From NCBI RefSeq assembly GCF_003860125.1, contig NZ_RQYL01000012.1, forward strand, positions 1-64,000: a DNA stretch of 64,000 bases. Reading direction: 5' to 3'. The translations under genes and the position numbers were made by a program. A model generated the notes under the pieces. That model saw nothing but the letters and a program-made list of their open reading frames with translations, did not search any database and was not told where the DNA came from. Of the stretch, positions 244 to 20,594 are shown one piece after another. This DNA is from Fretibacterium sp. OH1220_COT-178. Lineage in GTDB: Bacteria; Synergistota; Synergistia; Synergistales; Aminobacteriaceae. The stretch's first letter is position 1; each line of letters opens with the position of its first letter.

Positions 244-1197
244 ATGGTTATGAAGCATTGCTTACGGTCTTTGGCGGTTATCTTGGGTCTGACGATCTTT
301 TTTGTCCCGTCCGCCCATGCGGCCGAGGGGTTCCGGGTGGGGACGTGGAAGACGGCGCAGACCATCGCTCCGTTCTTCTACCCGGATCACCTCGTTGGCG
401 GGGCCGAGGTTTTGTCCTTCACCAACCCCGCGGACCAGAAGACCGCGCTTCTGGCGGGGAGCCTGGAGATGTGCGGGACGACCCTGGCCCACGCCATTCA
501 CTCCGCGTCCCAGGGACAGCCGGTGGTGGTCGTGGCGGCCCTGTGCAACAAGTGCTCGGCCCTGGTGGTGGCGAAGGACGGCCCGGTCAAGAGCGTCGCC
601 GACCTGAAGGGCAGAAAGATCGGCTATGTGCCGGGGACGATGCACGAGATCCTGCTCCGTGAGGCGCTGACCCGCAGCGGACTCTCCCCGGACTCGGACG
701 TCGAGCTGATGCGCGTGGACTTCTTCGATATGGGGACGGCTCTGTCCCGCGGTTCCATCGACGCCTTCCTCTCGGGAGAGCCGTTCCCCACTCTGGCGGT
801 CCACGAGGGATACGGCCGTATCCTCGCCCACCCCTATTACGAGGACAGCGTGGGGACCATCAACGCGGGAATGCTGACGACGCGGGAGAACATCGAGAAA
901 CACCCCGAGCGGGTTCTGGAGCTGGTGCGCGCCCACGTCAAGGCGACGCTGTTCTTGCAGCGGAACCCCGGGGCCTGGCTGGACAAGGCGGCCTCGTTCG
1001 GCACCGAGCGCGCGATCCTGGACCTGGCGGCGGAGAACATCGAGCTGGCCTGGCTGATCGACGAGAGCTTCGTGGAGAGGGCCAAGGCTCTTGGGGCCCG
1101 GATGGAGGCGCTGAAGGTGATCGACCGTCAGCCGGACTACGACGAGCTCTTCGACCTGAGCTTCGTCAAAAAGGTGCGGGAGGAGCTGGGGCTTTGA
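244..1197 (+). CDS. ABC transporter substrate-binding protein, NMT1/SsuA/NrtA-like
   Basis: A 317-residue exported solute-binding protein. Residues 1-26 form a signal peptide ending SAHA. The body has the pattern of the NrtA/SsuA/ThiY fold: an early TWK stretch, a GTTLAH ligand-loop region, and the VADLKGRKIGYVPGT segment that is diagnostic of this family. It should capture a small organic or oxyanion substrate in the periplasm; the sequence does not show which. An unusual CNKC pair sits at about residue 100. The start is set by GGAGGAG about 8 bases upstream; an in-frame ATG two codons later is equally possible. It overlaps the permease gene by 4 bases, so the three ABC genes are one operon. 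Confidence 0.88.
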   Translation: MVMKHCLRSLAVILGLTIFFVPSAHAAEGFRVGTWKTAQTIAPFFYPDHLVGGAEVLSFTNPADQKTALLAGSLEMCGTTLAHAIHSASQGQPVVVVAALCNKCSALVVAKDGPVKSVADLKGRKIGYVPGTMHEILLREALTRSGLSPDSDVELMRVDFFDMGTALSRGSIDAFLSGEPFPTLAVHEGYGRILAHPYYEDSVGTINAGMLTTRENIEKHPERVLELVRAHVKATLFLQRNPGAWLDKAASFGTERAILDLAAENIELAWLIDESFVERAKALGARMEALKVIDRQPDYDELFDLSFVKKVREELGL

Positions 1198-1991
1198 GGG
1201 ACACCCCCTCCTCCCTTGCCCTGCGTCTCCTGCCCTGGCTGCTGCCGGCCGTGCTGCTGGCGGCCTGGGGCCTTGCCAGCGGCACGGGATGGATGCCGGG
1301 CTATCTCCTTCCCGAACCGAGTCGGATCGTGCGCTCGTTCTCCCTCTATGTCTTTGGCCAGGCGGGGAGCGCCCCCTATGCCGGGCGTTTCTCCGCCGAC
1401 GCGGCGGCGAGCCTGACGCGGGTTCTCCTGGGGTTCGGCGTTGCCGTGCTGCTGGGCGTGCCTCTGGGCGTCCTGTCGGGAAGGAGCTTGATGGTGCGGA
1501 GCCTTCTGGGCACGACCGTCGACGGCGCACGCGCGGTCCCGGGGATAAGCTGGCTGCCCCTGGCCATGGCGTGGTTCGGCATCGGGCTGGGGACGACGGT
1601 ATTCCTGATCGCCCTGGCGGCGTTCTTCCCCGTCTACCTCAACACGGCGAGCGGCGTGCTCGGCGTCAACCCGGTCCTGTGCCAGGCCGGGGCGATGATG
1701 GGGGTGGGGCCGTTGAGAAGCGTCTGGACCATCCTGCTGCCGGCGGCCATGCCCCAGATCCTTGCCGGATTGAGGCTGGGTCTGGGAACCTCCTGGGCCT
1801 ATCTGGTGCTGGGAGAGCTCACCGGAGTTCCCAACGGCCTGGGGGCGGTCATCATGGATGCGAGGATGTTGGGCCGCGTCGACGTCATCATCGTGGGGAT
1901 CGTCGTCATCGCCGTGATGGGGCGGCTGAGCGACCTGCTGTTGACGGCCTCGATGCGGGCGTGCTTCCGATCGGCGCGGAGGTCCGCATGA
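1194..1991 (+). CDS. ABC transporter permease, SsuC/TauC-like
   Basis: A 265-residue inner-membrane permease with about six hydrophobic segments and a binding-protein-dependent transport domain. The cytoplasmic coupling loop (LCQAGAMMGVGPLRSVWTIL) has the usual form for SsuC/TauC/ThiX permeases. The TTG start overlaps the stop of the binding-protein gene, so translation is probably coupled. It forms the channel for the importer encoded with the genes on either side. Substrate unknown. Confidence 0.88.
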   Translation: MRDTPSSLALRLLPWLLPAVLLAAWGLASGTGWMPGYLLPEPSRIVRSFSLYVFGQAGSAPYAGRFSADAAASLTRVLLGFGVAVLLGVPLGVLSGRSLMVRSLLGTTVDGARAVPGISWLPLAMAWFGIGLGTTVFLIALAAFFPVYLNTASGVLGVNPVLCQAGAMMGVGPLRSVWTILLPAAMPQILAGLRLGLGTSWAYLVLGELTGVPNGLGAVIMDARMLGRVDVIIVGIVVIAVMGRLSDLLLTASMRACFRSARRSA

Positions 1992-2800
1992 GCGGGCGGC
2001 CGCTTCTCTCCCTGAGGAACGTATCCAAAGTGTTCCGAAACGGCGGGGACGTCCTGGAGGTGCTGTCCGGGGTGAGCTGCGACATCGCGGAGGGGGAGCG
2101 GGTGTGCCTGCTCGGCGGGAGCGGCTGCGGCAAGAGCACGCTGCTGAGGATCGTCGCCGGCTTTCTTATGCCCGACGCGGGGTGCGTGGAGATCGGCGGG
2201 GAGCGGATTGTGGGCCCCGGTTCGGACCGGTGCGTGGTGTTCCAGGAGGACGCCCTCTTCCCCTGGCTGACCGTCCGGGAGAACGTCGCCTTCGGTGCAC
2301 GGGGGAAGATGTCCCGCGAGGCGATGGATGCGGAGGTGAACCGCTATTTGGAGAAGGTTGGGCTGGCGTCCTTCGGCGATTATCTTCCCCGTGAGATCTC
2401 GGGGGGGATGAAGCAGAGGGTGGCCCTGGCCCGCGTGCTGATCCTGAGGCCGCAGGTGCTGCTGATGGACGAGCCCTTCGGTGCCCTGGATGCGTTGACC
2501 CGAGGGGAGATGCACGGGCTGTTCCTGTCCCTGATGCGGGAGACGAACGGGACGTCCCTTTTCGTGACCCATGATGTGGAGGAGGCCGTCACGCTGGCGG
2601 ACCGTATCCTGGTGATGGGCCGGGCGCCGGGCCGCATTCGGGCCGAGGTCCCCGTGGCGATCTCCCGGCCGCGGGATCGGTTCGACGACGCCTTCGTCCG
2701 GCTTTGCCGGGAGGTACGGGATTTGCTGGCCTCGGAGGCGGCTGCTGGGGATTGCGGCGCGGGAGAGTGTGCTGAAGGGCCTCGAGGTTCTCGGTCATAA
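1988..2800 (+). CDS. ABC transporter ATP-binding protein, SsuB/TauB-like
   Basis: A 270-residue ATPase for the importer above. It has Walker A (GGSGCGKST) near residue 40, a Q-loop (VFQEDALFPW), the signature SGGMKQR, Walker B (VLLMDEP) and the switch histidine (VTHD). The phrase DALFPWLTVRENV and the closing segment with GRAPGRI are typical of the SsuB/TauB/NrtD branch. The ATG start overlaps the permease stop as ATGA. The last 25 or so residues are Gly/Ala/Glu-rich and probably disordered. Confidence 0.92.
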   Translation: MSGRPLLSLRNVSKVFRNGGDVLEVLSGVSCDIAEGERVCLLGGSGCGKSTLLRIVAGFLMPDAGCVEIGGERIVGPGSDRCVVFQEDALFPWLTVRENVAFGARGKMSREAMDAEVNRYLEKVGLASFGDYLPREISGGMKQRVALARVLILRPQVLLMDEPFGALDALTRGEMHGLFLSLMRETNGTSLFVTHDVEEAVTLADRILVMGRAPGRIRAEVPVAISRPRDRFDDAFVRLCREVRDLLASEAAAGDCGAGECAEGPRGSRS

Positions 2801-2829
2801 TTTTGAGTTCAGCAAAGGAGATGCTTGAG

Positions 2830-3354
2830 ATGAGGAAATTTCTGATCGGATTTGCGTTGGTTCTGCTGGCGGCCGGGGCGAGTTTTGCGGCCAGTTTCGA
2901 TGTTGCGGCGAAGGCCGATGTCCTGGACGCCGTCGCCTCGAGCGCCCGTTTCTACACCATCCGTCTCTTGCCGGGCACGGACGTGGTGCAGGAGCTGCTG
3001 GCCTTCGTCGAGAGGAAGGGCATCAAGGCTGCCGCGATCGTGTCGTCGGTGGGCAGCCTCTCCGAGGCGCACCTTCGATTTGCCAACCGCAAGGAGGGGA
3101 CCCTGCTGAAGGGGGACTTCGAGACGATTTGTCTGAGCGGCACGCTCGAGCCGGGAGGGCGGCACCTGCACCTCTCCATCGCCGACGGGGACGGCAGGAT
3201 GTGGGGCGGACACATGATGAAGAGCGGCAGCATCACGCGTACCACGATGGAGATCGTCATCATGGAGCTCTTGGATGTCGTCTACAAGCGTGAGAAATGC
3301 CCCGTCTCCACCTACAACGAGCTGGTCGTCGCCCCCAGGGAGCCCGCGAAATAG
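2830..3354 (+). CDS. Exported PPC (DUF296) domain protein
   Basis: A 174-residue protein with a signal peptide (about 1-20, ending ASFA) followed by a PPC/DUF296 domain. The domain is recognised from GGRHLHLSIADGDGRMWGGH, which carries the family's paired histidines and GGH motif. PPC domains are usually cytoplasmic or fused to AT-hooks in plant DNA-binding proteins; this one is predicted to be exported. The start at 2830 fits AAGGAG at 2815-2820; the ATG at 2821 abuts that site and is too close. It follows the ABC ATPase by 29 bases and is probably in the same operon, which suggests a periplasmic role linked to the imported compound. Function unknown. Confidence 0.8.
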   Translation: MRKFLIGFALVLLAAGASFAASFDVAAKADVLDAVASSARFYTIRLLPGTDVVQELLAFVERKGIKAAAIVSSVGSLSEAHLRFANRKEGTLLKGDFETICLSGTLEPGGRHLHLSIADGDGRMWGGHMMKSGSITRTTMEIVIMELLDVVYKREKCPVSTYNELVVAPREPAK

Positions 3355-3401: not shown

Positions 3402-4154
3402 ATGACTGTCCCGGGCGACCCTTTTGTACGGATACGCGGCCTGGAAAAGCGTTTCGGCAGCGTCGAGGCGCTGCAGGATGTCTCGCTCGAAATTCGGCTG
3501 GGGGAGGTTCTGGCGATCGTCGGCACGAACGGTGCGGGCAAGTCGACGCTGGTCAAGATCGTCTCGGGAGTCCTTCGCCCGGACAGGGGAGAGTTGTCTC
3601 TGGGGGGAGAGCGTGTGGAGAACCTTACTCCGGCGCTCTCCCTGAAGAAGGGGGTGGCCGTCGTGTATCAGGACCTCGCGCTGGCGGATACGGGAAGCGT
3701 GTCCTTCAACGTGTTCCTGGGCGAGGAGCCGGCCCGATGGGGGCTGTGCCTCGACAGGCGTGCCATGGACGAGGGAGCGGAGGCTCTGCTGAAGAAAATG
3801 GATGTCGTTTTGCCGGATGTCCGCAGCGAGGTTCGTTTTCTCAGCGGCGGTCAGAGGCAGGCTGTCGCGATCGCGAAGGCCCTTCAGCGGGGCGGAAGGC
3901 TCCTGATTCTGGATGAGCCGACTGCCGCGATGGGGCCTGTCGAATCCGGCGCTGTCCTTCGTCTGCTGAAACGTCTGGCCGGGGAAGGTCACGGCATCGT
4001 CCTGATCTCCCATAATCTGCACGCGGTGTTTGGGATCGCCGATCGGATCTGTGTGATGCGGCAGGGCAGAATCGTGGCGCAGCGTCCCGCTTCGGAGCTG
4101 AACCCCGAACGCGTCGTCGCTCTCATGACCGGGGCGGAGGGGGAGGCGTTGTGA
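3402..4154 (+). CDS. Ribose-type ABC transporter ATP-binding protein, single domain
   Basis: A 250-residue ATPase with Walker A (GTNGAGKST), Q-loop (VVYQDLALAD), signature LSGGQRQ, Walker B (LLILDEPTAA) and switch His (LISHNL). The sequence resembles the first half of RbsA/XylG-type sugar ATPases, but it has one nucleotide-binding domain instead of the usual two (about 500 residues), as in FrcA-like systems. It would work as a homodimer with the permease that starts 4 bases before its stop. First gene of a six-gene run to 9364. Confidence 0.92.
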   Translation: MTVPGDPFVRIRGLEKRFGSVEALQDVSLEIRLGEVLAIVGTNGAGKSTLVKIVSGVLRPDRGELSLGGERVENLTPALSLKKGVAVVYQDLALADTGSVSFNVFLGEEPARWGLCLDRRAMDEGAEALLKKMDVVLPDVRSEVRFLSGGQRQAVAIAKALQRGGRLLILDEPTAAMGPVESGAVLRLLKRLAGEGHGIVLISHNLHAVFGIADRICVMRQGRIVAQRPASELNPERVVALMTGAEGEAL

Positions 4155-5098
4155 AGCGTCTTCTGCGGAACATCGGGAACCCGAACCCTCATATCCTTTT
4201 TGTCGGATTGCTGGTCCTGAGCCTCGGACTGAGCCGGGCCTCGCCGTATTTCTGGACGGGGCGCAACATCGCGAATATCTTCGATCAAGCCTCCGCCGGC
4301 ATCATCCTGTCGGTGGGCATGACCTTCGTGATTGCCGCAGGGGGTATCGATCTTTCCATAGGCGCCAACATCGCGCTCTCCTCCCTGGTGACGGCCCTGC
4401 TCCTGAAGCAGGGATGCGCTTTTTCGCTCTCGCTCGTGGCCGGGCTGCTCCTGGCCTCCGGGGGCGGGGTCCTGAACGGATGCCTCATCTCCTCCGTTCG
4501 ACTGAACCCGTTCATCGTGACCCTTTGCACGATGTCGGTGTTTCGCGGGACGGCCCTGATGCTGACCGACGGACGCCCCGTATTCGATTTTTCGGAGTCC
4601 TTCATGGCCCTTGGGGGGACACTTCCGGGCGGGCTGAGCGTTCCCGCCCTGTTGGCCTTGTCCGTCGCCGGGATGGGCGTATTCCTGATGCGTTTCACGA
4701 AGTTCGGGGCCTACGCCTGTTTCATGGGCTGCAACGAGGAGGCCCTGTCCCGCAGCGGGGTGAGCGTCCATCGCTGGAAGCTGGCTTTCTACGCCCTGTC
4801 GGGTCTCTGTTCCGGGCTCGCCGGCCTGGTCCTCTGCGCTCGACTCAACACGGCGGAGCCGCTTGCCGCAGTCGGCATCGAGATGGAGGTCATCGCCGCA
4901 GTCGTTCTCGGCGGTACGGATATTCGCGGCGGACGGGGCAGTGCCGCGGGGAGCCTGCTTGCCTGCCTCTTTCTGGCACTGCTCCGGAACGGCTTCGTCG
5001 TCCTAAACGTATCGGCCCGATATCAGCAGCTTTTGATGGGGCTGATCGTCCTTGCCGCGGTCTCCGTGTCGGAAATCCGTCACGGAAGAAGAACTTAG
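4151..5098 (+). CDS. Ribose-type ABC transporter permease
   Basis: A 315-residue RbsC-family membrane protein with eight to ten hydrophobic segments. The GIDLSIG motif and the VVLGGTDIRGGRG segment near the end are hallmarks of ribose/xylose/autoinducer-2 permeases. The GTG start overlaps the ATPase stop (GTGA). With its neighbours it should import a pentose, nucleoside or ribosylated compound; the exact substrate cannot be read from the sequence. Confidence 0.93.
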   Translation: MKRLLRNIGNPNPHILFVGLLVLSLGLSRASPYFWTGRNIANIFDQASAGIILSVGMTFVIAAGGIDLSIGANIALSSLVTALLLKQGCAFSLSLVAGLLLASGGGVLNGCLISSVRLNPFIVTLCTMSVFRGTALMLTDGRPVFDFSESFMALGGTLPGGLSVPALLALSVAGMGVFLMRFTKFGAYACFMGCNEEALSRSGVSVHRWKLAFYALSGLCSGLAGLVLCARLNTAEPLAAVGIEMEVIAAVVLGGTDIRGGRGSAAGSLLACLFLALLRNGFVVLNVSARYQQLLMGLIVLAAVSVSEIRHGRRT

Positions 5099-5144: not shown

Positions 5145-6107
5145 ATGAAGGGCATTTCGGTTCTGTCCCTGGGGGTGATGGCGATGGATACGGTGATCTC
5201 GGTCTCGGAACTGCCGAGGGCGGACGGTTTCGGCTTCATCGATGCGGAGCGGATGGTCCCGGGCGGAAGCGCCTCCAATACCTCCGTCGCCCTGGTGCAG
5301 CTGGGGGCGTCCGTCCGGCAGGCCGGTAAGGTGGGCGATGACCTCATGGGGGGACATCTGGTCCGGTCGCTCACCGATGAGGGGATCGACGTCAGCCGTC
5401 TGGTGACTCTCAAGGGCGGAACGACGTTCCATACCTATGTCTTTGCCGCCCCGGGCGGGGAACACTGTATCTTCGCCAACATCGGGGATTGCGTTACGAA
5501 GCTGAGTCCCCTGGAGCTTCCGTCCGGACTGTTGGATGGCATCGACGTCTTCTACACGGATTTCTTCGCCCCCGAGGCGGCTCTGTACCTGGCGGAACAG
5601 TCGAGGAAAAGGGGGATCAAGGTCGTGTTCAACCTCCAGTGTCCGCCCCTCTTCATGGAAAGGATCGGGGCGTCGCGGGAGGACATCGGGAGGATGATGG
5701 CCCTGTCCGACCTCTTTCTGATGGGACGGGCAGGCTATGGAGGGCTTTGTGGAGGCGGCTTGGGAGAGCAGGCGGTTTTTTCGGCCCTCTCCTCTATCTT
5801 GGGGCGTTTCGGTCCTGCCGACGGCGTCGTCCTGACCTGCGGGGAGGACGGAGCCTTCTGGTGCGACCGCGAGGGGATGTTGCATGTGAAAGCCTATCCC
5901 GTCTCCGTCGCGGATACGACGGGAGCCGGGGATTGTTTCAGTGCCGGCCTGATCTGCGGGTTTTACGGAGAGGGCATGGGCAGGGCGGCCTCGCTGCGTT
6001 TTGCGGCCGCAGCTGCGGCCCTGAAGTGTACGCAGCACGGGCCGCGCGTCAGGACCTCCCGGGAGGAGGTCCTCGGGTTTGTCGGAGAATGGGAGCAAAA
6101 AGTTTGA
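5145..6107 (+). CDS. PfkB-family carbohydrate/nucleoside kinase
   Basis: A 320-residue ribokinase-like kinase. The N-terminal PGGSASNTSVALVQLG and G-K-VGDDLMG motifs bind the sugar, and TTGAGDCFSAG holds the catalytic Asp and anion hole. It phosphorylates a sugar or nucleoside hydroxyl with ATP. It lies between the permease and the binding protein of a ribose-type importer and before two ADP-ribosylglycohydrolase genes. The same pairing (PfkB kinase with ADP-ribosylglycohydrolase) occurs in the E. coli yegTUV locus. The start at 5145 has a strong GGAGGGAGGAAAGGA site. Likely substrate: ribose or a nucleoside; not determined. Confidence 0.9.
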   Translation: MKGISVLSLGVMAMDTVISVSELPRADGFGFIDAERMVPGGSASNTSVALVQLGASVRQAGKVGDDLMGGHLVRSLTDEGIDVSRLVTLKGGTTFHTYVFAAPGGEHCIFANIGDCVTKLSPLELPSGLLDGIDVFYTDFFAPEAALYLAEQSRKRGIKVVFNLQCPPLFMERIGASREDIGRMMALSDLFLMGRAGYGGLCGGGLGEQAVFSALSSILGRFGPADGVVLTCGEDGAFWCDREGMLHVKAYPVSVADTTGAGDCFSAGLICGFYGEGMGRAASLRFAAAAAALKCTQHGPRVRTSREEVLGFVGEWEQKV

Positions 6108-6147: not shown

Positions 6148-7203
6148 ATGCGCGGAGGAAAACGTTTTTCTGCGTTTGGGATGACGATGGTCCTGGGATT
6201 TGCTCTTGTCCAGGGTTCTTTTGTCCCGGCCTGGGCCGCCGATGCCGGTCCGGAAGGAGCGCAGGCGATGCTTGAGGCGGAAAAATCGTTGATGGATGCC
6301 CTGAAGCCCCTGCCTGAAAAGGGGATGAATGCGAGGCTGGGGGCCATTGAAAGCACCCTTTCCAACCCTTTCTGGATCACCATGGAGGAGGGGTACCGGG
6401 ATGCGGCGAAGGAGTATGGAGTGACCATCGATGTCCAGGCCACGGCCACCGAGACGGACCTGGCAGGACAGCTGGACATCCTGAAGCAGATGATCGGGAA
6501 GCAATACGATGCCGTGTCCGTCTCTCCGCTTACGGAGCAGAATCTGCTTCTGGGCGTCGTCGAGGCCAACAAGAGCGGGGTGAAAATTGTCACCGTCGGA
6601 AACGGCGTGAACAGGGAGGCCCTGGAAAAACTGGGCGGGCGGATAGATGTCCACGTGACGACGGATTTCAGGATGCAGGGTGAGCTGGGGGCCGAGTACA
6701 TCGTCGGCAGGACCGGTGGCAAGGGTAAGGTTGCGGTCATCGAGGGCATTCCGGGGGCTACTCAGAGCGAGGCGCGGAAGAACGGGGCGGTGGAGGCCTT
6801 CAAAAAGGCGGGGATGGAGGTCCTCGCGGTTCAGGCCGCGAACTTCGACCGCCGTCAGGCTTACGATCTGGCCGCCGCTTTGATCGACGCCAATCCGGAT
6901 CTGGCCGGCATCGCCTGCGGCAACGACGTCATGGCCCTGGGGGCGGTCGAGGCCCTGAAAAGGAAGGGGATGAAGGACAAGGTCGTCGTCGTCGGGGTGG
7001 ATTTCATCGAGGAGGCGAAAGCATCCATCGAAAGGGGGGAGCTGGATGCGACCGTCGCCATGTCGCCCTACCTTCTGGGGAAGGCGGGGACGATCCTGTC
7101 CCTGAAGGCGCTTCGCGGCGACACGTTTGTCGAGGATGTCGTGTGGACCCCCATCAAGCTGGTGGATAAGGCAAACGTCGCCTCCATGGAAGGATGGAGA
7201 TGA
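6148..7203 (+). CDS. Ribose-type ABC transporter substrate-binding protein
   Basis: A 351-residue periplasmic binding protein of the RbsB/Peripla_BP_4 family. A signal peptide covers about 1-31 (ending PAWAA). Family features include NPFWITMEEGYRDAAKEYG, the SPLTEQNL stretch, and GIACGNDVMALGAVEALK in the second lobe. The start at 6148 follows AAGGAGGTTAGGGTT. It is separated from the kinase by 40 bases and overlaps the next gene by ATGA. It is the specificity subunit for the ABC genes at 3402-5098. Confidence 0.92.
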   Translation: MRGGKRFSAFGMTMVLGFALVQGSFVPAWAADAGPEGAQAMLEAEKSLMDALKPLPEKGMNARLGAIESTLSNPFWITMEEGYRDAAKEYGVTIDVQATATETDLAGQLDILKQMIGKQYDAVSVSPLTEQNLLLGVVEANKSGVKIVTVGNGVNREALEKLGGRIDVHVTTDFRMQGELGAEYIVGRTGGKGKVAVIEGIPGATQSEARKNGAVEAFKKAGMEVLAVQAANFDRRQAYDLAAALIDANPDLAGIACGNDVMALGAVEALKRKGMKDKVVVVGVDFIEEAKASIERGELDATVAMSPYLLGKAGTILSLKALRGDTFVEDVVWTPIKLVDKANVASMEGWR

Positions 7204-8267
7204 GGGAACGACCTTCGTTGCGTTCGAAAATTCTGGGGAGCCTGATCGGTTCAGCGGCCGGGGATGCAATGGGGGCCGCCACGGAGGCGCGCACCACGGA
7301 GCAGATCCTCGAGCGTTTCGGGCACAGGGTGACCGATTTCGAGACTCCGCCGCCGGACACCTTCGCCGCCGGCAGCGTCGCGGGACAGGTGACGGATGAC
7401 TTCAGCTCCGCCTATTTCATCGTCCGGAGCGTCGTCCGGAACGGGGGCAAGGTGGATGAAAATGAGGTGAAGGCAGCCCTTGTCGAGTGGTCGGAGCACG
7501 AGGTGTTCTTCGACCGTTTCGCCGGCCCGACCACGCGGATGGCGATCGAGCGCTTCAAGACGGGAGAGGACCCCTCCTTCCGGGGGATCAACCTCTCCTC
7601 CCGGCAGGCGACGAATGGCGCGGCTATGCGGATCGCTCCGATCGGGCTCCTGTTCCCCGGGGCCGTTGACCTTGCCGTCGAAAACGCCTTCCGTGTCGCG
7701 CGCCTCACCCACGACAACGTCCTTGCCCTTTCGGGGGCCTGTGCCGTGGCGGCGGCCGTGAACCGGGCCTTGTCGCCCGACGCCGGGCTTTACAGCGTCC
7801 TGGAGGCGGGGCTTTATGGAGCCCTCGAGGGAGAGCGGCTCGGCAGGGAACGGTCGCACGACGTGGCCGGTCCCCGGGTTGTCAACAAGCTGGAGCTGGC
7901 CCTGGATATCGGCCTGGGCCCGCTCGCGCCTGAGGACAAGGCGGTCGAGATACGGGATCGGATCGGTACGGGACTTCACATTGCCGAGGCGGTCCCTGCG
8001 GCTTTCGGCATCCTGGCCTCTCGGCGCGGGGACGCCATGGAGACCTTGATCGACTGCGTCAACATCGGCTACGACACGGATACTCTGGCGACCATCGCGG
8101 GAGGCATCGCCGGAGCCCTGTCGGGGGCGGAGGCCTTTCCCCGCCATTTCCTTTCGGTCCTGGAGAGCGTGAACGGTTTTGAGATCGCGTCTCTGGCGGA
8201 CCGCATTCTCGAACTCGCCCTTCAGGACACCGGCCGTTCAGGGGGGAAGGAGGGGGAGGTGGAATGA
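7200..8267 (+). CDS. ADP-ribosylglycohydrolase family protein
   Basis: A 355-residue ARH-fold protein. The metal-site elements are visible: GDAMGAATE near residue 20, VTDD near 65, and GYDTDTLATIAGGIAGA near 285, so the binuclear magnesium site looks complete. Family members remove ADP-ribose from proteins or small molecules or cleave related N-glycosidic bonds. Here the importer and kinase context suggests action on an imported ribosylated metabolite, possibly a nucleoside; this is inference. The ATG at 7200 overlaps the binding-protein stop and has GGAAGGA 6 bases upstream, so it is preferred over the ATG at 7194. Confidence 0.88.
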   Translation: MRERPSLRSKILGSLIGSAAGDAMGAATEARTTEQILERFGHRVTDFETPPPDTFAAGSVAGQVTDDFSSAYFIVRSVVRNGGKVDENEVKAALVEWSEHEVFFDRFAGPTTRMAIERFKTGEDPSFRGINLSSRQATNGAAMRIAPIGLLFPGAVDLAVENAFRVARLTHDNVLALSGACAVAAAVNRALSPDAGLYSVLEAGLYGALEGERLGRERSHDVAGPRVVNKLELALDIGLGPLAPEDKAVEIRDRIGTGLHIAEAVPAAFGILASRRGDAMETLIDCVNIGYDTDTLATIAGGIAGALSGAEAFPRHFLSVLESVNGFEIASLADRILELALQDTGRSGGKEGEVE

Positions 8268-9364
8268 GCGTAAACCTGAAGGAGAAGGTGCTGGGGGCCT
8301 TTTACGGCGCTGCGATTGGGGACGCGATGGGCGCCGCGACGGAGACCTTGTCGCGCCGCCGTATCGAGGAGGTTTACGGGGGCCGGGTGACGGCATTTCG
8401 AAAACCCGCCCCGGAGACGCCCGCCTCCGGCAGAGAGGCGGGACAGATTACGGATGCCTTCGGCATTCCGTGGGCACTGGCTCGGCAGATCGTGCGCCGT
8501 GGGGAGGTGGACGCCCGGGCAGGGGTCGATGCTCTTCTTGAGTGGAGCGCAGACGCGGATGTGTTCGAGCGTTTTGCGGGGATGACGACGAAAAAGGTGA
8601 TCCGCCAGTTGAACGATGCCGCCGGGACGATGAACTATTGGGAGTACGCCGGCAGGCTCGGCAACAAGCTCTTCAAGAGCCACTTCTACGCGCTTTCCTC
8701 CAACGGCGCTGCGGTGAAGGCCTTTGTCCCCGGAATACTGAATCCGGGGGACCCCGACCGGGCGATCCGTGAGGCGATGACGATCTGCATGACCTCCCAC
8801 GACGACCGGATCAGCATCTCGGGAGCCTGTGCCGTCGCCGCCGCGGCAAGCCGGGCTATGGAGGATGGGGCGAGCGTCGAGGATATGGTCGACGCCGCTT
8901 TTTACGGAGCCGGGAGGGGCTTGGAGTGGGCCCCGTCCAATGCGATGAGCTATCCGGGGCCCTCCGTACCGAAGCGTATGGAGATGGCGATTCGGCTGGT
9001 TATGAAGGGACTGCCTAAGGAGGAGCGGATAGCCCTTCTGGCGGATACCCTGGGCACCGGCCCCGCCATCGCGGAGACGGTCCCTGTGGCTCTCGCCATT
9101 CTGGTCTGCAACAGCGGGGAGACCATGCCCTCGATCTTCGATGCGGTGAATGTCGGAGACGAGACCAGTGCCATTGCGACCCTTGCCGGAGCTTTGGCCG
9201 GAGCCTTATTGGGAGCGAAGTCGACGCGCGCGGAGGATCGCCGCACGATCCAGGAAAAGAATCCTTTGGATATCGAGGAGACGGGCGCGCGCTTCTGCGA
9301 GCTGATCCAAGCGCGAAGCCTGGCGCGTGATGGCGGTGTGGCGCATGAGCTGCAGGAACGATAG
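8264..9364 (+). CDS. ADP-ribosylglycohydrolase-like protein with altered metal site
   Basis: A 366-residue paralogue of the preceding gene, joined to it by an ATGA overlap. The first motif is intact (GDAMGAATE), but the TDD element reads TDAFG and the C-terminal DTDT element reads DETS. Three expected magnesium ligands are therefore substituted. The fold is otherwise well kept (SISGACAVAAAASRAM, GTGPAIAETVPVALAIL). It may be a regulatory or substrate-binding subunit for the first copy, or an enzyme with different chemistry. Last gene of the importer operon. Confidence 0.85.
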   Translation: MSVNLKEKVLGAFYGAAIGDAMGAATETLSRRRIEEVYGGRVTAFRKPAPETPASGREAGQITDAFGIPWALARQIVRRGEVDARAGVDALLEWSADADVFERFAGMTTKKVIRQLNDAAGTMNYWEYAGRLGNKLFKSHFYALSSNGAAVKAFVPGILNPGDPDRAIREAMTICMTSHDDRISISGACAVAAAASRAMEDGASVEDMVDAAFYGAGRGLEWAPSNAMSYPGPSVPKRMEMAIRLVMKGLPKEERIALLADTLGTGPAIAETVPVALAILVCNSGETMPSIFDAVNVGDETSAIATLAGALAGALLGAKSTRAEDRRTIQEKNPLDIEETGARFCELIQARSLARDGGVAHELQER

Positions 9365-9505
9365 GGCTGCTTACGGGCTTTTGCCCGTGTAAGCCGTCCT
9401 CCGGATGTCGGATGCCCGATGGATCGTGCGGTTGGGCCTGAATTGCGAGCACCGGCCGAAAGCCGGTGCTCGATATCTCTCCAACTCAACTTTCACGTCT
9501 AACAT
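9365..9505. repeat. Intergenic hairpins after the importer operon
   Basis: Two hairpins are visible: one at about 9366-9391 (GCTTACGGGC, 4-nt loop, arm with a 2-base bulge) and a perfect one at about 9449-9473 (GAGCACCGGC pairing with GCCGGTGCTC). Neither is followed by a T run. They may act in mRNA 3'-end formation, or belong to the genome's repetitive hairpins, although the flanks do not match the 15.5-kb family. Confidence 0.5.
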
Positions 9506-10260
9506 TTAGTCATGAAAAGTTCTGACATTAGCTCGTTGAGCGGAGCCGAATCGTTTCAGAAAATCGCTTGAGCGGACAGTTTCAGCCTTTTCCTCGAGGG
9601 AACCGGAAGGGAGGTCGGAAAGACTTCGAGCCTTGCACTCGGCCCTTCCTCCGACAGACACAGCTTCTCCGACACATACGCCACCCACCCCCCACCAAGA
9701 GCTCGAAGGCTTCCGGCAACGTGATATCCGCAAGCTCGTCACAAGCACAATGAAACGATTCTCCTCCGCCGAAAGAGAAACATCCGAACTGAGCGGAACC
9801 AGATGCTCCTTGTAAAGGGGGCGGACTTTTGACGTCTCCTTCACCATAGCGATGACGTCGAGCTCCAGCTCCTTCGGAGCCAGAATGTTCGCGGGCGTCG
9901 AGAACCAGGAATCGAAGAGCACGTAAGACGCCTTCAGTCCCGTGGCGAGTGCGCCGCGGAGCAATTCCGTCATCGCGTCGGGAGCCCTGTCCTGAGAGAT
10001 CGGAGGGCTTCGAACGGGGTTTTGTGGATGAACGCCGGTTCGAAGAGTTTGCGGAAGATGTCGAGTACCGGAACATCTTCTTCCTTGTAGGCTCCGCTTC
10101 TCTTCAGAATAGAACCTGCTTTGAAGGAACGGAAGAAGGACTCGATGATGGAGGATGTCTCGTTCGGGGCAGCGGTGGTTTGTGTTATGCTTTGCGTGGC
10201 GTGGACCTCCAGGGGATTGTGTTTTTGGACGATGCAATTTTGCCCAAAAGGCTCCCATGC
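9506..10260 (-). pseudogene. Decayed IS4-type transposase
   Basis: On the minus strand one frame reads SSIIESFFRSFKAGSILK...IFRKLFEPAFIHKTPFEALRSL and stops near 9985. A second frame continues as ALATGLKASYVLFDSWF, ILAPKELELDVIAMVKETSK and ENRFIVLVTSL. YVLFDSWFS followed by a DVIAMVK strand is the pattern of IS4-family DDE transposases and includes the second catalytic Asp. At least one frameshift separates the halves. The region that should carry the catalytic Glu and the C-terminus is not recognisable, so the gene is inactive. No clean terminal inverted repeats were found. Confidence 0.75.
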
Positions 10261-10455: not shown

Positions 10456-10530
10456 TGGAGCCGGCGAACAGATTCGAACTGTTGACCTGCGCATTACGAG
10501 TGCGCTGCTCTACCCCTGAGCCACGCCGGC
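10456..10530 (-). tRNA. tRNA-Thr (CGU anticodon)
   Basis: The minus strand folds into a complete cloverleaf: acceptor GCCGGCG/CGCCGGC, D arm GCTC/GAGC, anticodon stem GCGCA/TGCGC with loop CTCGTAA (anticodon CGT, reads ACG), T arm AACAG/CTGTT with loop TTCGAAT, discriminator T and an encoded CCA. Length 75 nt including CCA. It has its own promoter and terminator. Decayed transposase DNA lies directly downstream. Confidence 0.96.
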
Positions 10531-11643: not shown

Positions 11644-13038
11644 ATGGACAAAGGTCTGAGGCGTATTCCCCGCCTTCTCGTCGCAGCAACGCAGAGCGGG
11701 TCCGGCAAGACGACGATCGTCAGCGGGCTCTTGGCTGCCCTTCGGCGGAGGGGGCTTCGCATTTGCGGATACAAGGTGGGGCCCGATTACATCGATCCCG
11801 GGCATCATCGGCTGGCGGGGGGCTGCCCGGTCTTCAATCTGGACACCTGGCTGACCGACGAACGGACGATGGCCGGCCTGTTCGCTCGGACGTCGGAAGA
11901 AGCCGACGTCGCTGTCGTGGAGGGCGTCATGGGCCTGTACGACGGCGGGCGGGGCGGAGTGAGCAGCAGTGCGCAGATCGCGAAGCTTCTGGGCCTCCCC
12001 GTGGTCCTGGTGGTCGATGCGCGCTCCATGGGGGAGAGCGCGGCCGCGGTCGCCCTGGGTTTTCGGGAATACGACCGTGAGGTGGATCTTCGGGGCGTCA
12101 TCCTGAACCGCCTGGGCTCCGAATCCCACGCTACGATGATCCGCGAGGCGCTGGACCGGGTCGGCATTCCCCTCCTTGGAGCACTGAGGCGCGACGAGGC
12201 GCTGGTCATGCCCGAACGGCATCTTGGGCTGGTCCCGGCCGGAGAGGGGCTGGACGCCGGCCGCATCGACCGCATCCGCGCTGCGGTCGAGAACGATGTC
12301 GATGTCGAGGCCCTGCTTGCGGCCGCGCGCTCGGCGGGGCCGCTTGCCCTGGAGCCCGTCCCTTCCCCCCGCCCCTTCGCGCGGAGGGTCGTCGTTGCGG
12401 TGGCTAGGGACGATGCCTTCTCCTTCTACTATCCGGACAGCCTCTCCGCTCTCGAGGACCGTGGGGCGGAGCTGGTCTTCTTCAGCCCGATACGGGACGG
12501 GACGCTGCCCGATGCGGATGCCCTGATCCTGGGCGGCGGCTTCCCGGAGGTTTTTGCGCGCGAGCTCTCGGCCAACGCGGCCATGCGTTCTGCCGTGGCG
12601 GCGGCGGCGGAGCGGGGGATGCCGATCCTCGCGGAATGCGGAGGATTCATGTACCTGACGCGGTCGATCACGGACTTTCGGGGCGAATCCTTCGAGATGG
12701 CGGGAGTCGTTCCCGCACGTTGCCGCATGAACGACCGGCTCCAGACCGTGGGGTATGTGGAGGCCCTCGCCCTGAGGGAGACGGTGCTTTGTTCCGAGGG
12801 GACAAAGCTGCGCGGGCACGAGTTCCATTTCTCTTCAGTGGAGCCCGAATCCTCCGGAGACGCGTTCCCCCATGCCTTCTCCCTGGAGAGGAAGCGTACG
12901 GGCGTCCGCTGCCCCGGGGGGTACGCGAACGGGGATATTCTGGGCTCCTACCTGCACCTCAACCTGGCGGGCAACCCCTCGGCAGCCGACCATTTCCTGG
13001 GGCGCTGCCTTGCCTTCAAGGAACGCCGCACCTTGTAG
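11644..13038 (+). CDS. cbiA: Cobyrinate a,c-diamide synthase
   Basis: A 464-residue enzyme that amidates the a and c carboxylates of cobyrinate (or hydrogenobyrinate) with glutamine and ATP in cobalamin synthesis. The N-terminal dethiobiotin-synthetase-like domain has the P-loop ATQSGSGKTT and YKVGPDYIDPGHH. The C-terminal class I glutamine amidotransferase domain has the nucleophile Cys in ILAECGGFMYL and the closing His in LGSYLHLNL. The ATG at 11644 follows GGGAGGTTGGCGCA; the reading frame is open further upstream, but that part overlaps speH in another frame. No other cobalamin gene is adjacent. Confidence 0.94.
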   Translation: MDKGLRRIPRLLVAATQSGSGKTTIVSGLLAALRRRGLRICGYKVGPDYIDPGHHRLAGGCPVFNLDTWLTDERTMAGLFARTSEEADVAVVEGVMGLYDGGRGGVSSSAQIAKLLGLPVVLVVDARSMGESAAAVALGFREYDREVDLRGVILNRLGSESHATMIREALDRVGIPLLGALRRDEALVMPERHLGLVPAGEGLDAGRIDRIRAAVENDVDVEALLAAARSAGPLALEPVPSPRPFARRVVVAVARDDAFSFYYPDSLSALEDRGAELVFFSPIRDGTLPDADALILGGGFPEVFARELSANAAMRSAVAAAAERGMPILAECGGFMYLTRSITDFRGESFEMAGVVPARCRMNDRLQTVGYVEALALRETVLCSEGTKLRGHEFHFSSVEPESSGDAFPHAFSLERKRTGVRCPGGYANGDILGSYLHLNLAGNPSAADHFLGRCLAFKERRTL

Positions 13039-13145
13039 GCGGGCTCGACGGCCGAGGGAAGAGGTGGGAGGACGTGTCCCTTTGGCGTGGTGCGTTTACA
13101 CGCTTCGGCCGAGCCCGAGAATTTTCCATTTCCCCCACCCCTTTC

Positions 13146-13175
13146 TTGACAAGGCCCCTTCCCTGAGCGTAAACT
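13146..13175 (+). promoter_or_regulatory. Sigma70-type promoter for the YheO-type regulator
   Basis: A perfect TTGACA (13146-13151) is followed 18 bases later by TAAACT (13170-13175), then AT-rich DNA. It is about 100 bases upstream of the regulator start and could drive transcription into the purine cluster. Confidence 0.7.
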
Positions 13176-13275
13176 TTTATTGGAGTAAGAAAAAATTATC
13201 ACGTCATTAAAAAAATCGCAGTCCTGCTTTCCAGGAGGGGGTCAAGGGGCTGTGCTCCGTTTGGGAGGTGTGGCT

Positions 13276-14049
13276 TTGGCTTCCGAAAGATTGGAGAAAA
13301 AAGATCATGTGAGCGTCGCCGAGACCGCATCGGGCGAGCCCACCGGTTCCGATATCGTCGCTTCCTACCTGCCTCTGGTCGACTTTCTGGCGGAGGCCCT
13401 GGGTCCGACCGCGGAGATCGTCCTTCACGACCTCCGCCGTGAGGAGCATTCCATGATCGCCATCCGCAACGGGGAGCTGACCGGACGCAGGGTGGGGGAC
13501 GCCACCGCGACGGAGTCCGCCCTCAGGATGGTGCGCCGGGCCGAGGAGCGAGGCAAGTCCTACATGGCCAATTATTTCGGTCAGCCGGCGGGCGAGAAGA
13601 TCCTGCGCTCCTCCTCCTATTTCATTCGGGACGAGGACCGGAGCGTCGTGGGGATCCTGGGCATCAACGTCGACCTCACGCAGCTTCTGGCGGCGCGCCA
13701 GACGATGGACCGCCTTCTGGCGCTTTCGGAGGCCGATCCTGCCGGAGGCTCTCTGCCTCCCTCCATCGCCTCCCTTTTTCCGGGGCGCCCCGGGGCGGCT
13801 TCCTCGCCCGACGGAGCCCTTCCGCCTCCCGAGTCCTCGCGCGACATCGAACACATGGTCTACTCGGTTCTCGACCGGGTGCTGTCCGCCTGCAAGGCGG
13901 ACCCCGTGCGGCTCACGGCACGGGAGAAGCGCGAGGTGGTGGACGAGCTCAATGCACGGGGGGTCTTCCTGCTGAAGGGCGTAATCACGGAGGTCGCACG
14001 GCGCCTTGCCGTGTCGGAGCAGACGATATACCGGTATCTGAAGAACTGA
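13276..14049 (+). CDS. YheO-type PAS/HTH transcriptional regulator
   Basis: A 257-residue DNA-binding regulator. The N-terminal half is a YheO-like PAS domain (VDFLAEALGPTAEIVLHDL, SYFIRDEDRSVVGILGINVDLT). The C-terminal 50 residues form a helix-turn-helix (KREVVDELNARGVFLLKGVI then VARRLAVSEQTIYRYLK). A Pro/Ser/Gly-rich linker joins them. TTG at 13276 has GGGAGGTG 7 bases upstream; GTG at 13252 is an alternative giving eight more residues. It lies 73 bases upstream of ssnA on the same strand and is the obvious candidate controller of the purine genes. Its ligand is unknown. Confidence 0.87.
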   Translation: MASERLEKKDHVSVAETASGEPTGSDIVASYLPLVDFLAEALGPTAEIVLHDLRREEHSMIAIRNGELTGRRVGDATATESALRMVRRAEERGKSYMANYFGQPAGEKILRSSSYFIRDEDRSVVGILGINVDLTQLLAARQTMDRLLALSEADPAGGSLPPSIASLFPGRPGAASSPDGALPPPESSRDIEHMVYSVLDRVLSACKADPVRLTAREKREVVDELNARGVFLLKGVITEVARRLAVSEQTIYRYLKN

Positions 14050-14122
14050 GCGCGAACGGGTTTGTCCGAAAAATTTTCTCCCCGCCTTGGATGGGGGGAG
14101 GCTGGGTGGGGAGGTAACGACC

Positions 14123-15448
14123 ATGCTCTTGATCGGAAACGGAATGCTGGTGACGCGCGATCCCGAAAATCCGTGGTTTCCCGACGGCTGTGTGGCGGTC
14201 GAGGACCGGCTGATCGTGTCGGTGGGACCGACGGCCGAGCTGCGGACCCAATACCCCGAGGCCCGATTCCTGGACGCGCGGGGCGGGCTGATCATGCCGG
14301 GCTTCATCAACGCCCACATGCACCACTACAGCGCGTTCTCGCGCGGGATGTTCACGAAGGACGCGCCGGCGCAGAACTTCATGGAGGTGCTGGAACGGCT
14401 CTGGTGGCGCCTGGACAAGGCGCTGAGCCTGGAGGACTGCTACTACAGCGGTCTCATCTGCATGATCGACTGCATCAAGAACGGAACGACGACGGTGCTG
14501 GATCACCACGCCAGTCCCCATGCGGTGAGGGGCAGCCTGTTCGAGCTGGCCCGTGCCGCCCGCGAGACCGGGATACGGAACTGCCTCTGCTACGAGGTGT
14601 CCGACCGGGACGGGCCGGAGATCCTGCGCGAGGGCATCGAGGAGAACATGGAGTTCATCCGCGCCGCGGCCAAGGAGGACGACCTGCTGGCCGGTACCTT
14701 CGGGCTCCACGCCTCCATCACGCTCTCGAACGAGTCCCTGGCGGCCTGCCGGGAGGCGATGGGGGATGCGGACGCGGGCTTCCACGTCCACGTGGCCGAG
14801 GGGCCGACCGATGAGACGGACTCCGAGGCGAAGTACGGCAAGCGCATCCTGGAACGTTTCCGCGATTTCGGGCTTTTGGGGGAGAAATCCATCGCCGTGC
14901 ACTGCATCCATGTGAACGAGCGCGAGATGGACATCCTGAAGGAGACGGGGACGGCCGTCGTCCACAACCCGGAGTCCAACATGGGCAACGCCGTGGGTAC
15001 GTCGCCCGTCCTGGAGTTCTGCCGCCGCGGCCTCCTGACCGGCCTCGGGACCGACGGGTACGTCAGCGACATGCTCCAGTCCTACAAGATGGCCAACGCC
15101 CTGCAGAAGCACGCCAACGGGCACCCCAACGTGGCCTGGGGGGAGATCCCGCAGATGCTCTTCGAGAACAACGCGCGCATCGCGGAGCGGTACTTCGGCG
15201 TCCCGCTGGGCCGTCTGTCGCCCGGATACTCGGCCGACGTCGTGGTGTCCGACTACGCGCCGCCGACCCCGTTGTCCGACGTCAACATCAACGGACATCT
15301 GCTCTTCGGGACATCCGGCCGGAGCGTCGTCACCACCGTCGCGCGGGGCAAGGTGCTGATGGAGAACCGCGTGCTCCAGGGGATCGACGAGAAGGCCGTC
15401 GCCGCCAAGGCCCGCGAGCTGGCGGTCAAGACGTGGGAGAGGTTCTAG
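14123..15448 (+). CDS. ssnA: SsnA-type amidohydrolase (purine catabolism)
   Basis: A 441-residue amidohydrolase of the SsnA branch, related to chlorohydrolases and guanine deaminases. Metal ligands are visible in INAHMHHYSAF near residue 68, the HVHVAEG histidine near 227, the AVHCIH segment near 260, and the Asp of GLGTDGY near 310. In E. coli ssnA lies beside ygfK and xdhD, and the family belongs to clusters for anaerobic urate/purine breakdown; the exact reaction here is inferred from that link. Start chosen from GGTGGGGAGGTAACGACC directly upstream. It is followed by a 400-base hairpin-rich gap before ygfK. Confidence 0.88.
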   Translation: MLLIGNGMLVTRDPENPWFPDGCVAVEDRLIVSVGPTAELRTQYPEARFLDARGGLIMPGFINAHMHHYSAFSRGMFTKDAPAQNFMEVLERLWWRLDKALSLEDCYYSGLICMIDCIKNGTTTVLDHHASPHAVRGSLFELARAARETGIRNCLCYEVSDRDGPEILREGIEENMEFIRAAAKEDDLLAGTFGLHASITLSNESLAACREAMGDADAGFHVHVAEGPTDETDSEAKYGKRILERFRDFGLLGEKSIAVHCIHVNEREMDILKETGTAVVHNPESNMGNAVGTSPVLEFCRRGLLTGLGTDGYVSDMLQSYKMANALQKHANGHPNVAWGEIPQMLFENNARIAERYFGVPLGRLSPGYSADVVVSDYAPPTPLSDVNINGHLLFGTSGRSVVTTVARGKVLMENRVLQGIDEKAVAAKARELAVKTWERF

Positions 15449-15735
15449 CAGACGGCCAGCTCTCCGCGGGCGAAGCCCGCGGATGCTGTGCCGGTCGCTA
15501 TCTGGCCAGCGCAACAGTTTGCGCTGGCCAGGCGTGAATGACCGGCCCTTTGCGGCCTTTTAGGCCGCAAATGCCGTGTCTGTCACTATCTCGACGGCAC
15601 AACAGTTTGTGCCGTCGAGGCGCAGACGGCCAATCTGGGGAGTCGGATAGGCGCTGGTCAGGCGTGAATGACTGGCCCTTTTGGACCGTGACTGGCCAGG
15701 CGCAGACGGCCAGCCCGGCTCTTCGTTCAGAGCCG
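15449..15735. repeat. Hairpin-repeat array between ssnA and ygfK
   Basis: At least five hairpins follow one another: 15463-15483 (9-bp stem, GAA loop), 15502-15531 (13-bp stem), 15549-15571 (9-bp stem), 15590-15619 (13-bp stem) and 15717-15734 (6-bp stem). The two 13-bp hairpins share the left flank TC[G/A]CTATCT and the core CAACAGTTTG but have different outer stem sequences with matching partners. The motif GCAGACGGCC or a close form recurs at 15449, 15621 and 15701. Similar units occur at 24-93. The rest of the gap to 15857 shows no gene. Confidence 0.8.
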
Positions 15736-15857
15736 TCGAGGCGCAGACGACCGTGAAGCGCTTCGGCGCAGGCGTTTTTAGTGCTCGGCAGCTTTGATTC
15801 CTCTTTGCCCGGCAGGAGGGGCGAGGGGGGACGGATATTGAAGGAGGGGGTGTGCGC

Positions 15858-19112: not shown

Positions 19113-19125
19113 CGGATGACGACGC

Positions 19126-19170
19126 GGGGGCGCCGCCCCCGTCCCCCGTCCGGGGAGCAAGCTCCCCGGA
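19126..19170. repeat. Two intergenic hairpins between ygfK and ygeY
   Basis: GGGGGCGCCGCCCCC at 19126-19140 is a perfect palindrome. At 19149-19170 TCCGGGGAGC pairs with GCTCCCCGGA around a 2-base loop. No T run follows, so they may protect or punctuate the transcript instead of ending it. Confidence 0.6.
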
Positions 19171-19209
19171 ACCCCATATAACAAAAATACGCAAAGAGGT
19201 GCATGGGTT

Positions 19210-20451: not shown

Positions 20452-20471
20452 GAGCGTTTCCCTTTCAAAAA

Positions 20472-20575
20472 GCCGGGGCGCCGTTTTGCGCTCCGGCCCA
20501 AGCTCTTCGATGCGGTTGTTTCCGAGGCTTCGAGACGCTTCCTTAAAAATTGTCCTCCTCCCGGGGGAGGAGGAC
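20472..20575 (+). promoter_or_regulatory. Leader hairpins before the purine permease
   Basis: A 10-bp stem (20472-20481/20488-20497) is followed by an 11-bp perfect stem (20552-20562/20565-20575) whose left arm, GTCCTCCTCCC, resembles an anti-Shine-Dalgarno sequence. The permease's own site GAGGGAGGGGG begins only a few bases after the second hairpin and could pair with the same arm. That would allow a switch controlling translation; this is inference. Confidence 0.4.
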
Positions 20576-20594
20576 GAGGGAGGGGGAATGCGGA

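Follow-up and report, generated by a model that had tools for sequence, protein, structure and literature searches.

An ADP-ribosylglycohydrolase and an adjacent paralogue with altered metal ligands in sugar-importer operons of Synergistota and Bacillota

The stretch of DNA analysed here, referred to as the window, comprises positions 1 to 64,000 of contig NZ_RQYL01000012.1 (NCBI RefSeq assembly GCF_003860125.1) from Fretibacterium sp. OH1220_COT-178, a member of the Synergistota. On its plus strand lie six genes in series, overlapping or separated by short gaps, that encode, in order, an ATPase, a permease, a PfkB-family kinase, a substrate-binding protein (SBP), and two members of the ADP-ribosylglycohydrolase family, which we call GH-A and GH-B. 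GH-A (7194..8267, plus strand, 357 residues) carries a complete set of metal ligands; GH-B (8264..9364, plus strand, 366 residues) is a degenerate paralogue, 36% identical to GH-A, whose gene is joined to that of GH-A by an ATGA overlap. Both belong to the Pfam family ADP_ribosyl_GH (PF03747, cut-off 26.2 bits), with scores of 206 bits for GH-A and 142 bits for GH-B, and a search of the genome identified them as its only members of the family. Neither reaches the NCBIfam equivalog cut-offs for DraG and Tri1 (337 and 490 bits, respectively), since GH-A scores 81 and 58 and GH-B scores 40 and 30. Single-chain AlphaFold2 models calculated from a six-row alignment have the ADP-ribosylhydrolase (ARH) fold (GH-A, pLDDT 84.5 and pTM 0.88; GH-B, pLDDT 82.9 and pTM 0.87), and a Foldseek search places MJ1187 (1t5j) first for both models, followed by ARH3 and DraG, with TM scores of 0.72/0.87 between the GH-B model and 1t5j. 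An earlier note on this DNA had described tandem ADP-ribosylglycohydrolases at 7200-9364, the second gene being intact, translationally coupled, and preserved in fold; both open reading frames (ORFs) are indeed intact and match the Pfam family, their coordinates lie within 6 bases of that range, and the GH-B model folds like GH-A.

What distinguishes the two paralogues? A binuclear metal centre is required by all characterised ARH enzymes (PMC7050489). In human ARH3, residues Thr76, Asp77, Asp78, and Asp316 are ligands of MgA, and Asp314, Asp316, and Thr317 are ligands of MgB (PMC8141533, Table 2); the D77A, D78A, D314A, and D316A substitutions each leave the enzyme inactive or nearly so, and D314E loses MgB (PMC8141533). 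We mapped GH-A and GH-B residues to ARH3 through the HMMER match alignment. GH-A retains all six ligands, in the motif Thr67-Asp68-Asp69 (7392..7400, plus strand; equivalent to ARH3 T76-D77-D78) and the motif Asp294-Thr295-Asp296-Thr297 (8073..8084, plus strand; equivalent to ARH3 D314-T-D316-T317), as well as the catalytic residue Glu31 (equivalent to ARH3 E41), and the complete ligand set and catalytic Glu are present in all 12 GH-A sequences. In GH-B, the binuclear set is incomplete. Its first motif is Thr63-Asp64-Ala65 (TDD to TDA; 8450..8458, plus strand) and its second is Glu300-Thr301-Ser302-Ala303 (DTDT to ETSA; 9161..9172, plus strand), which in ARH3 numbering amounts to D78A, D314E, D316S, and T317A, changes at four of the six ligands. 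Glu27 stands at the position of the catalytic Glu, and the canonical active-site residues Thr63, Asp64, His179, and Glu271 are still present. The motifs reported in the earlier note (VTDD and GYDTDT in the first copy, TDAFG and GDETSA in the second) are those we find, as QVTDDF and NIGYDTDT in GH-A and QITDAF and NVGDETSA in GH-B. Its phrase that the second copy was stripped of metal ligands is correct for three of the six (D78, D316, and T317, now Ala65, Ser302, and Ala303) but slightly too strong overall, as Thr63 and Asp64 are kept and Glu300 is a conservative replacement for Asp314.

Are these substitutions peculiar to one genome? When GTDB genomes were searched with a sequence pattern, GH-B turned up in a Tissierellia metagenome-assembled genome (L006) and in Mobilibacterium timonense (L007), and profile searches of the phylum, of several Bacillota groups, and of a Bacillota-wide sample added L027, L052, L053, L060, L107, L108, L109, and L110. 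The GH-B set thus contains 11 sequences, one from the window and ten from Bacillota genomes, a distribution that is a lower bound because genomes were sampled. GH-B was not found in 60 sampled relatives from the window's order, nor in the wider sample of the phylum; its presence in Bacillota led us to reject the idea that it is restricted to the window genome. In all 11 GH-Bs, the position equivalent to ARH3 Asp78 is Ala, Ser, or Val, the position equivalent to Asp314 is Glu, the position equivalent to Asp316 is Ser, Cys, or Ala, and the position equivalent to Thr317 is Ala. In 31 alignment columns the 24 canonical relatives do not vary at all; every one of the 11 GH-Bs deviates from them at four of the six ligand columns, compared with two of the 25 others (Fisher p = 0.006), and an earlier set of 15 versus 7 sequences gave four of six ligand columns and three of 47 others (p = 0.0016). 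Judged from these alignments, the ligand loss in GH-B is not chance. Identity to the window copy ranges from 42-56% for GH-B and from 55-66% for GH-A. The ratio of nonsynonymous to synonymous substitution (dN/dS), which rests on few unsaturated pairs, is about 0.13 for close GH-B pairs (0.097/0.732 and 0.148/1.162) and 0.10-0.12 for close GH-A pairs (0.065/0.623 and 0.112/0.960). The altered GH-B is thus constrained by purifying selection, about as strongly as GH-A, and is no pseudogene. A stop inside the GH-B match of genome G773 was considered as a disruption and rejected; it is the gene's own stop, and the ORF is intact. The catalytic Glu drifts in GH-B, being Asp in L007 and L060 and Ala in L110.

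GH-A is encoded directly upstream of GH-B in 11 of 11 operons, and no GH-B was seen without GH-A. The order ATPase-permease-PfkB-SBP-GH-A-GH-B is identical in seven of the operons. Elsewhere, a contig end cuts the operon inside the SBP gene (L107), a gene for a 2-hydroxyacyl-CoA dehydratase D-component (HGD-D) lies between the SBP and GH-A genes (L108), or the pair comes first and is followed by the ATPase, the permease, a PsuG-like gene, the PfkB kinase, and the SBP (L109 and L110), so that GH-A and GH-B stay adjacent even where the operon is rearranged. GH-A relatives without GH-B are common and occur in other operon types, with a phosphotransferase system, a Bmp-type nucleoside ATP-binding cassette (ABC) importer, or a PfkB kinase only; the importer, too, is found where both GH genes are missing, in most cases together with a PsuG-like gene. 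Since GH-B always stands behind GH-A while GH-A relatives lack GH-B, we suggest that GH-B depends on GH-A and not the reverse.

In the phylogeny, the 11 GH-Bs form one clade (support 97/95), and the GH-A proteins, together with a protein P1 from locus L028, form a separate clade (98/95). Five sub-groups are common to both clades, namely (window, L006), (L007, L060), (L052, (L053, L027)), (L109, L110), and (L107, L108), as joint inheritance from one duplication would predict. The GH-B tips of the tree are approximately 1.7 times as long as the GH-A tips. Locus L028 itself holds a second form of the same intact/degenerate arrangement: directly behind the intact P1 lies P2 (L028:5121-6149), a more degenerate ARH paralogue (TDD to SGE, D314A, and GDA to GSA), and this pair is accompanied by a different kind of ABC importer. 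P2 joins the GH-Bs in a wider clade (100/98), a placement that its long branch makes less sure. A different tandem of the ADP_ribosyl_GH family was observed in G061 (contig 4, 22613-25614; L010 and L012), where two such domains lie in long frames (~700 residues) beside an ABC permease. Matches on plasmids are weaker relatives (<35% identity), and the one inspected, which comes from Salmonella, is canonical, present as one copy, and located next to a major facilitator superfamily (MFS) importer and a kinase. A lead concerning Salmonella RikA was dropped, as no ARH gene is described beside RikA (PMC13432705).

The alignment with canonical members also revealed a conserved loop specific to GH-B, residues 126-148 (W..AGRLGNKLFKSHFYALSSNG; 8639..8707, plus strand). 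Residues Trp126, Leu132, Gly133, Lys135-Lys138, His140, Tyr142, and Ala143 are found in seven of seven GH-Bs and are absent from canonical members, and the core K-L-F...A-SSN is kept in all 11; in L109 and L110, Ser or Ala replaces the second Lys and Asp replaces the His. The loop immediately precedes the NG motif and falls in the region of the chain that in ARH3 bears Phe143 and Tyr149, the aromatic residues that stack on adenine (PMC7050489). Residues 121-145, which take in most of the loop, are of low confidence in the AlphaFold2 model, and that the loop binds a nucleobase or an effector is speculation.

The genes upstream of the pair encode a CUT2-type sugar ABC importer and a kinase. The single-domain ATPase (3402..4154, plus strand, 250 residues; Pfam ABC_tran), whose gene also opens the orthologous operons, has as its nearest NCBIfam models the N-terminal halves of YtfR, XylG, AraG, and RbsA, all below cut-off. 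Similarly, the permease (4151..5098, plus strand, 315 residues; Pfam BPD_transp_2), whose gene overlaps that of the ATPase by 4 bases, is nearest to ribose and allose permeases, again below cut-off. The ribokinase-like PfkB-family kinase (5145..6107, plus strand, start codon inferred, ORF open from 5052; Pfam PfkB, 121 bits) contains the motif DTTGAGD, and its closest solved structures are the ribokinases 6znx and 8cqx. The SBP (6148..7203, plus strand, start inferred; Pfam Peripla_BP_4, 179 bits) is of the allose/ribose-binding type, its best solved relative being the D-allose-binding protein 1gub (E 4e-57). Directly 3' of the GH-B stop, a hairpin (9369..9394, plus strand; fold of 9366-9400, -15.8 kcal/mol) likely marks the end of the operon, and a second strong hairpin follows at 9446-9472 (fold of 9440-9480, -24.2 kcal/mol). 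Both are without a U-tract, so terminator function is only conjectural for the first. Just upstream of the operon (244-3354) lie SsuABC/NMT1-like ABC importer genes and then a gene for a PCC-domain (DUF296-like) protein; the related loci inspected showed no matches to any of these genes. The interval that separates the operon from a tRNA-Thr gene (10456-10530) contains short overlapping ORFs on the minus strand (9506-10258) that resemble a decayed transposase and have no Pfam match. Farther downstream (14087-22004 and 43392-45173), the window holds a purine breakdown region with an SsnA-like amidohydrolase, a YgfK-like oxidoreductase, a xanthine/uracil permease, and an adenine deaminase.

What does this operon take up? 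The CUT2 importer, the ribokinase-like kinase, and the PsuG-like and nucleoside-importer genes found elsewhere suggest that the compound salvaged is a riboside or resembles ribose. The context in relatives leans toward ribosides, with PsuG-like Indigoidine_A genes and a Bmp-type (nucleoside) importer beside the GH-A relative of L054. These genes are found in relatives only; the window SBP is nearest to allose and ribose binders, a similarity that would favour a plain sugar or sugar conjugate as the substrate. We rejected pseudouridine catabolism, as no match to PF04227 (PsuG, Indigoidine_A) was found in the window's own genome, which speaks against pseudouridine itself. Regulation of protein ADP-ribosylation of the DraG or Tri1 type was also rejected, given the NCBIfam scores below cut-off and the fact that the operon showed no ADP-ribosyltransferase gene.

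Three further observations concern the gene content of related loci. Many Bacillota have a divergent PsuG-like gene (Indigoidine_A, ~260 residues, 'FLVETALLGHGL') next to the importer, frequently immediately behind the gene for the SBP (L007:2297-3076, L028:7221-8072, L052:11947-12729, L060:11823-12605, L086-L092, L109:13174-13980, L110:3312-4109, and L111:6837-7595). The assignment was made by Pfam for L007, L028, L052, L060, and L109 and by eye from the N-terminal sequence for the rest, and the proteins are divergent (E ~2e-6 to E. coli PsuG structures); together with the importer, they possibly constitute a system that salvages C- or N-ribosides independently of GH-A and GH-B. In four genomes, HGD-D and BcrAD_BadFG ATPase genes lie beside or within the operon (L027:57-1989; L053:11917-13910; L108:8695-9831 and 14152-14937; L111:1965-2726 and 7627-8766), which may mean that the pathway includes a reductive step. 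Finally, the operon of L027 is immediately preceded, on its own strand, by genes for a purine nucleoside phosphorylase, MtnA, and a class II aldolase (12724-15250), which resemble a 5'-deoxynucleoside salvage set.

We propose that GH-A and GH-B are an obligate, co-translated pair in a riboside or ribose-like uptake-and-breakdown operon and that GH-B is a non-catalytic partner of GH-A, a reading toward which we lean without regarding it as secure. The earlier note had suggested that, within an importer operon, either one member of the pair is active and the other inactive or the catalytic function has changed; it proposed aligning orthologues to see whether the loss is conserved in the same gene order and held that absence or random decay of the second gene would count against its suggestion. 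The same four ligand positions are altered in 11 of 11 operons, GH-B is intact in every one, and selection and gene order agree with the suggestion in either of its forms. One old duplication within the family would have given rise to the two proteins. By homology, the compound would be imported through the CUT2 ABC system; GH-A, to judge from its family and intact two-metal centre, would cleave a glycosidic bond at ribose C1 (the anomeric carbon); and the kinase, being similar to ribokinases, would phosphorylate the sugar or the imported compound. The ARH3 mutants suggest that GH-B would be unable to hold a binuclear Mg/Mn centre and has most likely lost hydrolase activity. Ligand loss, selection, adjacency, and co-inheritance point to a GH-B that would bind GH-A and stabilise, activate, or restrain it, and that possibly binds the ligand of GH-A without cutting it; it is most likely a scaffold, activator, or ligand sensor for GH-A. 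Because the pairing is kept in at least 10 other genomes, GH-B is a maintained working part, and three marks of an enzyme/pseudoenzyme pair are present, namely residue loss in one paralogue, its conservation under purifying selection, and constant linkage to the presumably active paralogue; a physical complex with GH-A and an effect on it are predicted. Several points weigh against this proposal. With Thr, Asp, and a Glu at the position equivalent to Asp314, GH-B could still bind one metal, and the conserved polar Lys, His, and Tyr residues of its loop could be catalytic. To our knowledge, ARH3 and DraG are not obligate heterodimers. The riboside part of the proposal is weak, since the SBP is more monosaccharide- than nucleoside-like and the genome has no PsuG-like gene of its own.

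The main rival to a partner role holds that GH-B is an enzyme of changed chemistry, acting on another bond or a later intermediate with a site that holds one metal or none and to which Asp64, Asp180/Asp181, Asp299/Glu300, and the Lys/His/Tyr loop contribute. The strict exchange of Asp for Glu, the near-strict Ala/Ser replacements, the new conserved polar loop near the pocket, and strong purifying selection would all fit such an enzyme, and Asp64 and Glu300 are metal-capable. However, neither the catalytic Glu (Asp in L007 and L060, Ala in L110) nor the Lys and His of the loop (Ser or Ala and Asp in L109 and L110) are held constant, GH-B evolves faster than GH-A, and strict adjacency to GH-A points to a partner role; we therefore regard changed chemistry as a serious but rather unlikely alternative. 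GH-B might instead be a ligand-sensing or chaperone-like protein for another member of the operon, such as the kinase or the importer ATPase, and not for GH-A. The gene layout makes all of these partners co-transcribed, and ARH folds can work through transporters, because GlnK and an ammonium transporter keep DraG at the membrane (PMC7050489). Yet the L028 pair is accompanied by a different ABC importer, so the constant neighbour is GH-A and not the importer, and we consider this role improbable.

Two simpler readings fare worse. That GH-B is an ordinary ADP-ribosylglycohydrolase tolerating altered ligands is in keeping with a Pfam score well over cut-off and a retained fold, but single changes at these aspartates kill ARH3 (PMC8141533) and GH-B combines four ligand changes, which makes this very unlikely. 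A decaying, functionless duplicate would account for lost active-site residues and for branches longer than those of GH-A; it is still harder to credit, and random decay was rejected, given a GH-B whose gene is uninterrupted in all 11 genomes, even where identity falls to 42%, with dN/dS of about 0.13, the same substitutions throughout, and a conserved loop of its own.

How does the pair compare with known systems? ARH3, ARH1, and DraG share with GH-A and GH-B the PF03747 fold and family, and GH-A keeps their TDD...DTDT motifs and catalytic Glu; in contrast to them, GH-A and GH-B are encoded in a sugar-uptake operon with a kinase rather than beside nitrogenase or ADP-ribosyltransferase genes, and GH-B is without four of the ligands. 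ARH2 (ADPRHL1), a suspected inactive vertebrate paralogue (PMC7050489), resembles GH-B as an ARH member thought to be without catalysis and yet kept, but it is of a different lineage and shares no operon with an active sister. The ARHL protein of the chloroplast FtsHi motor complex (PDB 8xks and 8xqw) shows an ARH-like fold serving as a complex subunit, in a setting unrelated to that of GH-B. The E. coli yegTUV genes, of unknown function, encode a nucleoside symporter, an ADP-ribosylglycohydrolase homologue, and a PfkB-type sugar kinase (PMC10819704), and thus combine an importer, an ARH-family protein, and a sugar kinase as the window operon does; they differ in having an MFS rather than an ABC importer, just one ARH gene, unaccompanied by a degenerate copy, and a repressor that responds to ADP-glucose. 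For ARH2, ARHL, and yegTUV, no adjacent and co-inherited pair of an active and a degenerate member is known. PsuK/PsuG pseudouridine catabolism finds a parallel in several relatives, where a PfkB kinase and a PsuG-like glycosidase lie beside the same importer; the window genome has no PsuG-like gene. The trypanosome AdoMetDC prozyme is reported to be a catalytically dead paralogue that activates the intact enzyme with which it is co-retained (PMC5201418); it differs in fold and kingdom, and its heterodimer is proven there, whereas that of GH-A and GH-B is a prediction. A literature search, with most subscription journals outside its scope, found no description of an ARH active/inactive pair or of an ARH nucleoside hydrolase. 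Enzyme/pseudoenzyme pairs are a known kind, and the GH-A/GH-B pair is apparently undescribed within the literature searched.

More tentatively, and with greater doubt than attaches to the partner role itself, we suggest that GH-B represents a new ARH-fold subfamily in which the two-metal centre has been exchanged for a conserved Lys/His/Tyr loop. Such a GH-B would be either a regulatory subunit that senses a ligand or an enzyme with novel chemistry, in both cases strictly dependent on an active ARH hydrolase, in a riboside-salvage system spread across Bacillota and Synergistota. The pair would be a clear-cut example from bacteria of a family of enzymes split into an intact twin and a twin without the metal site that have long been inherited together, and it offers a testable system for the control of live paralogues by dead ones within the ADP-ribosylhydrolase family. 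It also points towards a role in metabolism, probably the cleavage of ribosides, for proteins that pipelines annotate as 'ADP-ribosylglycohydrolase', and for genes of the GH-B type the hydrolase annotation should be avoided.

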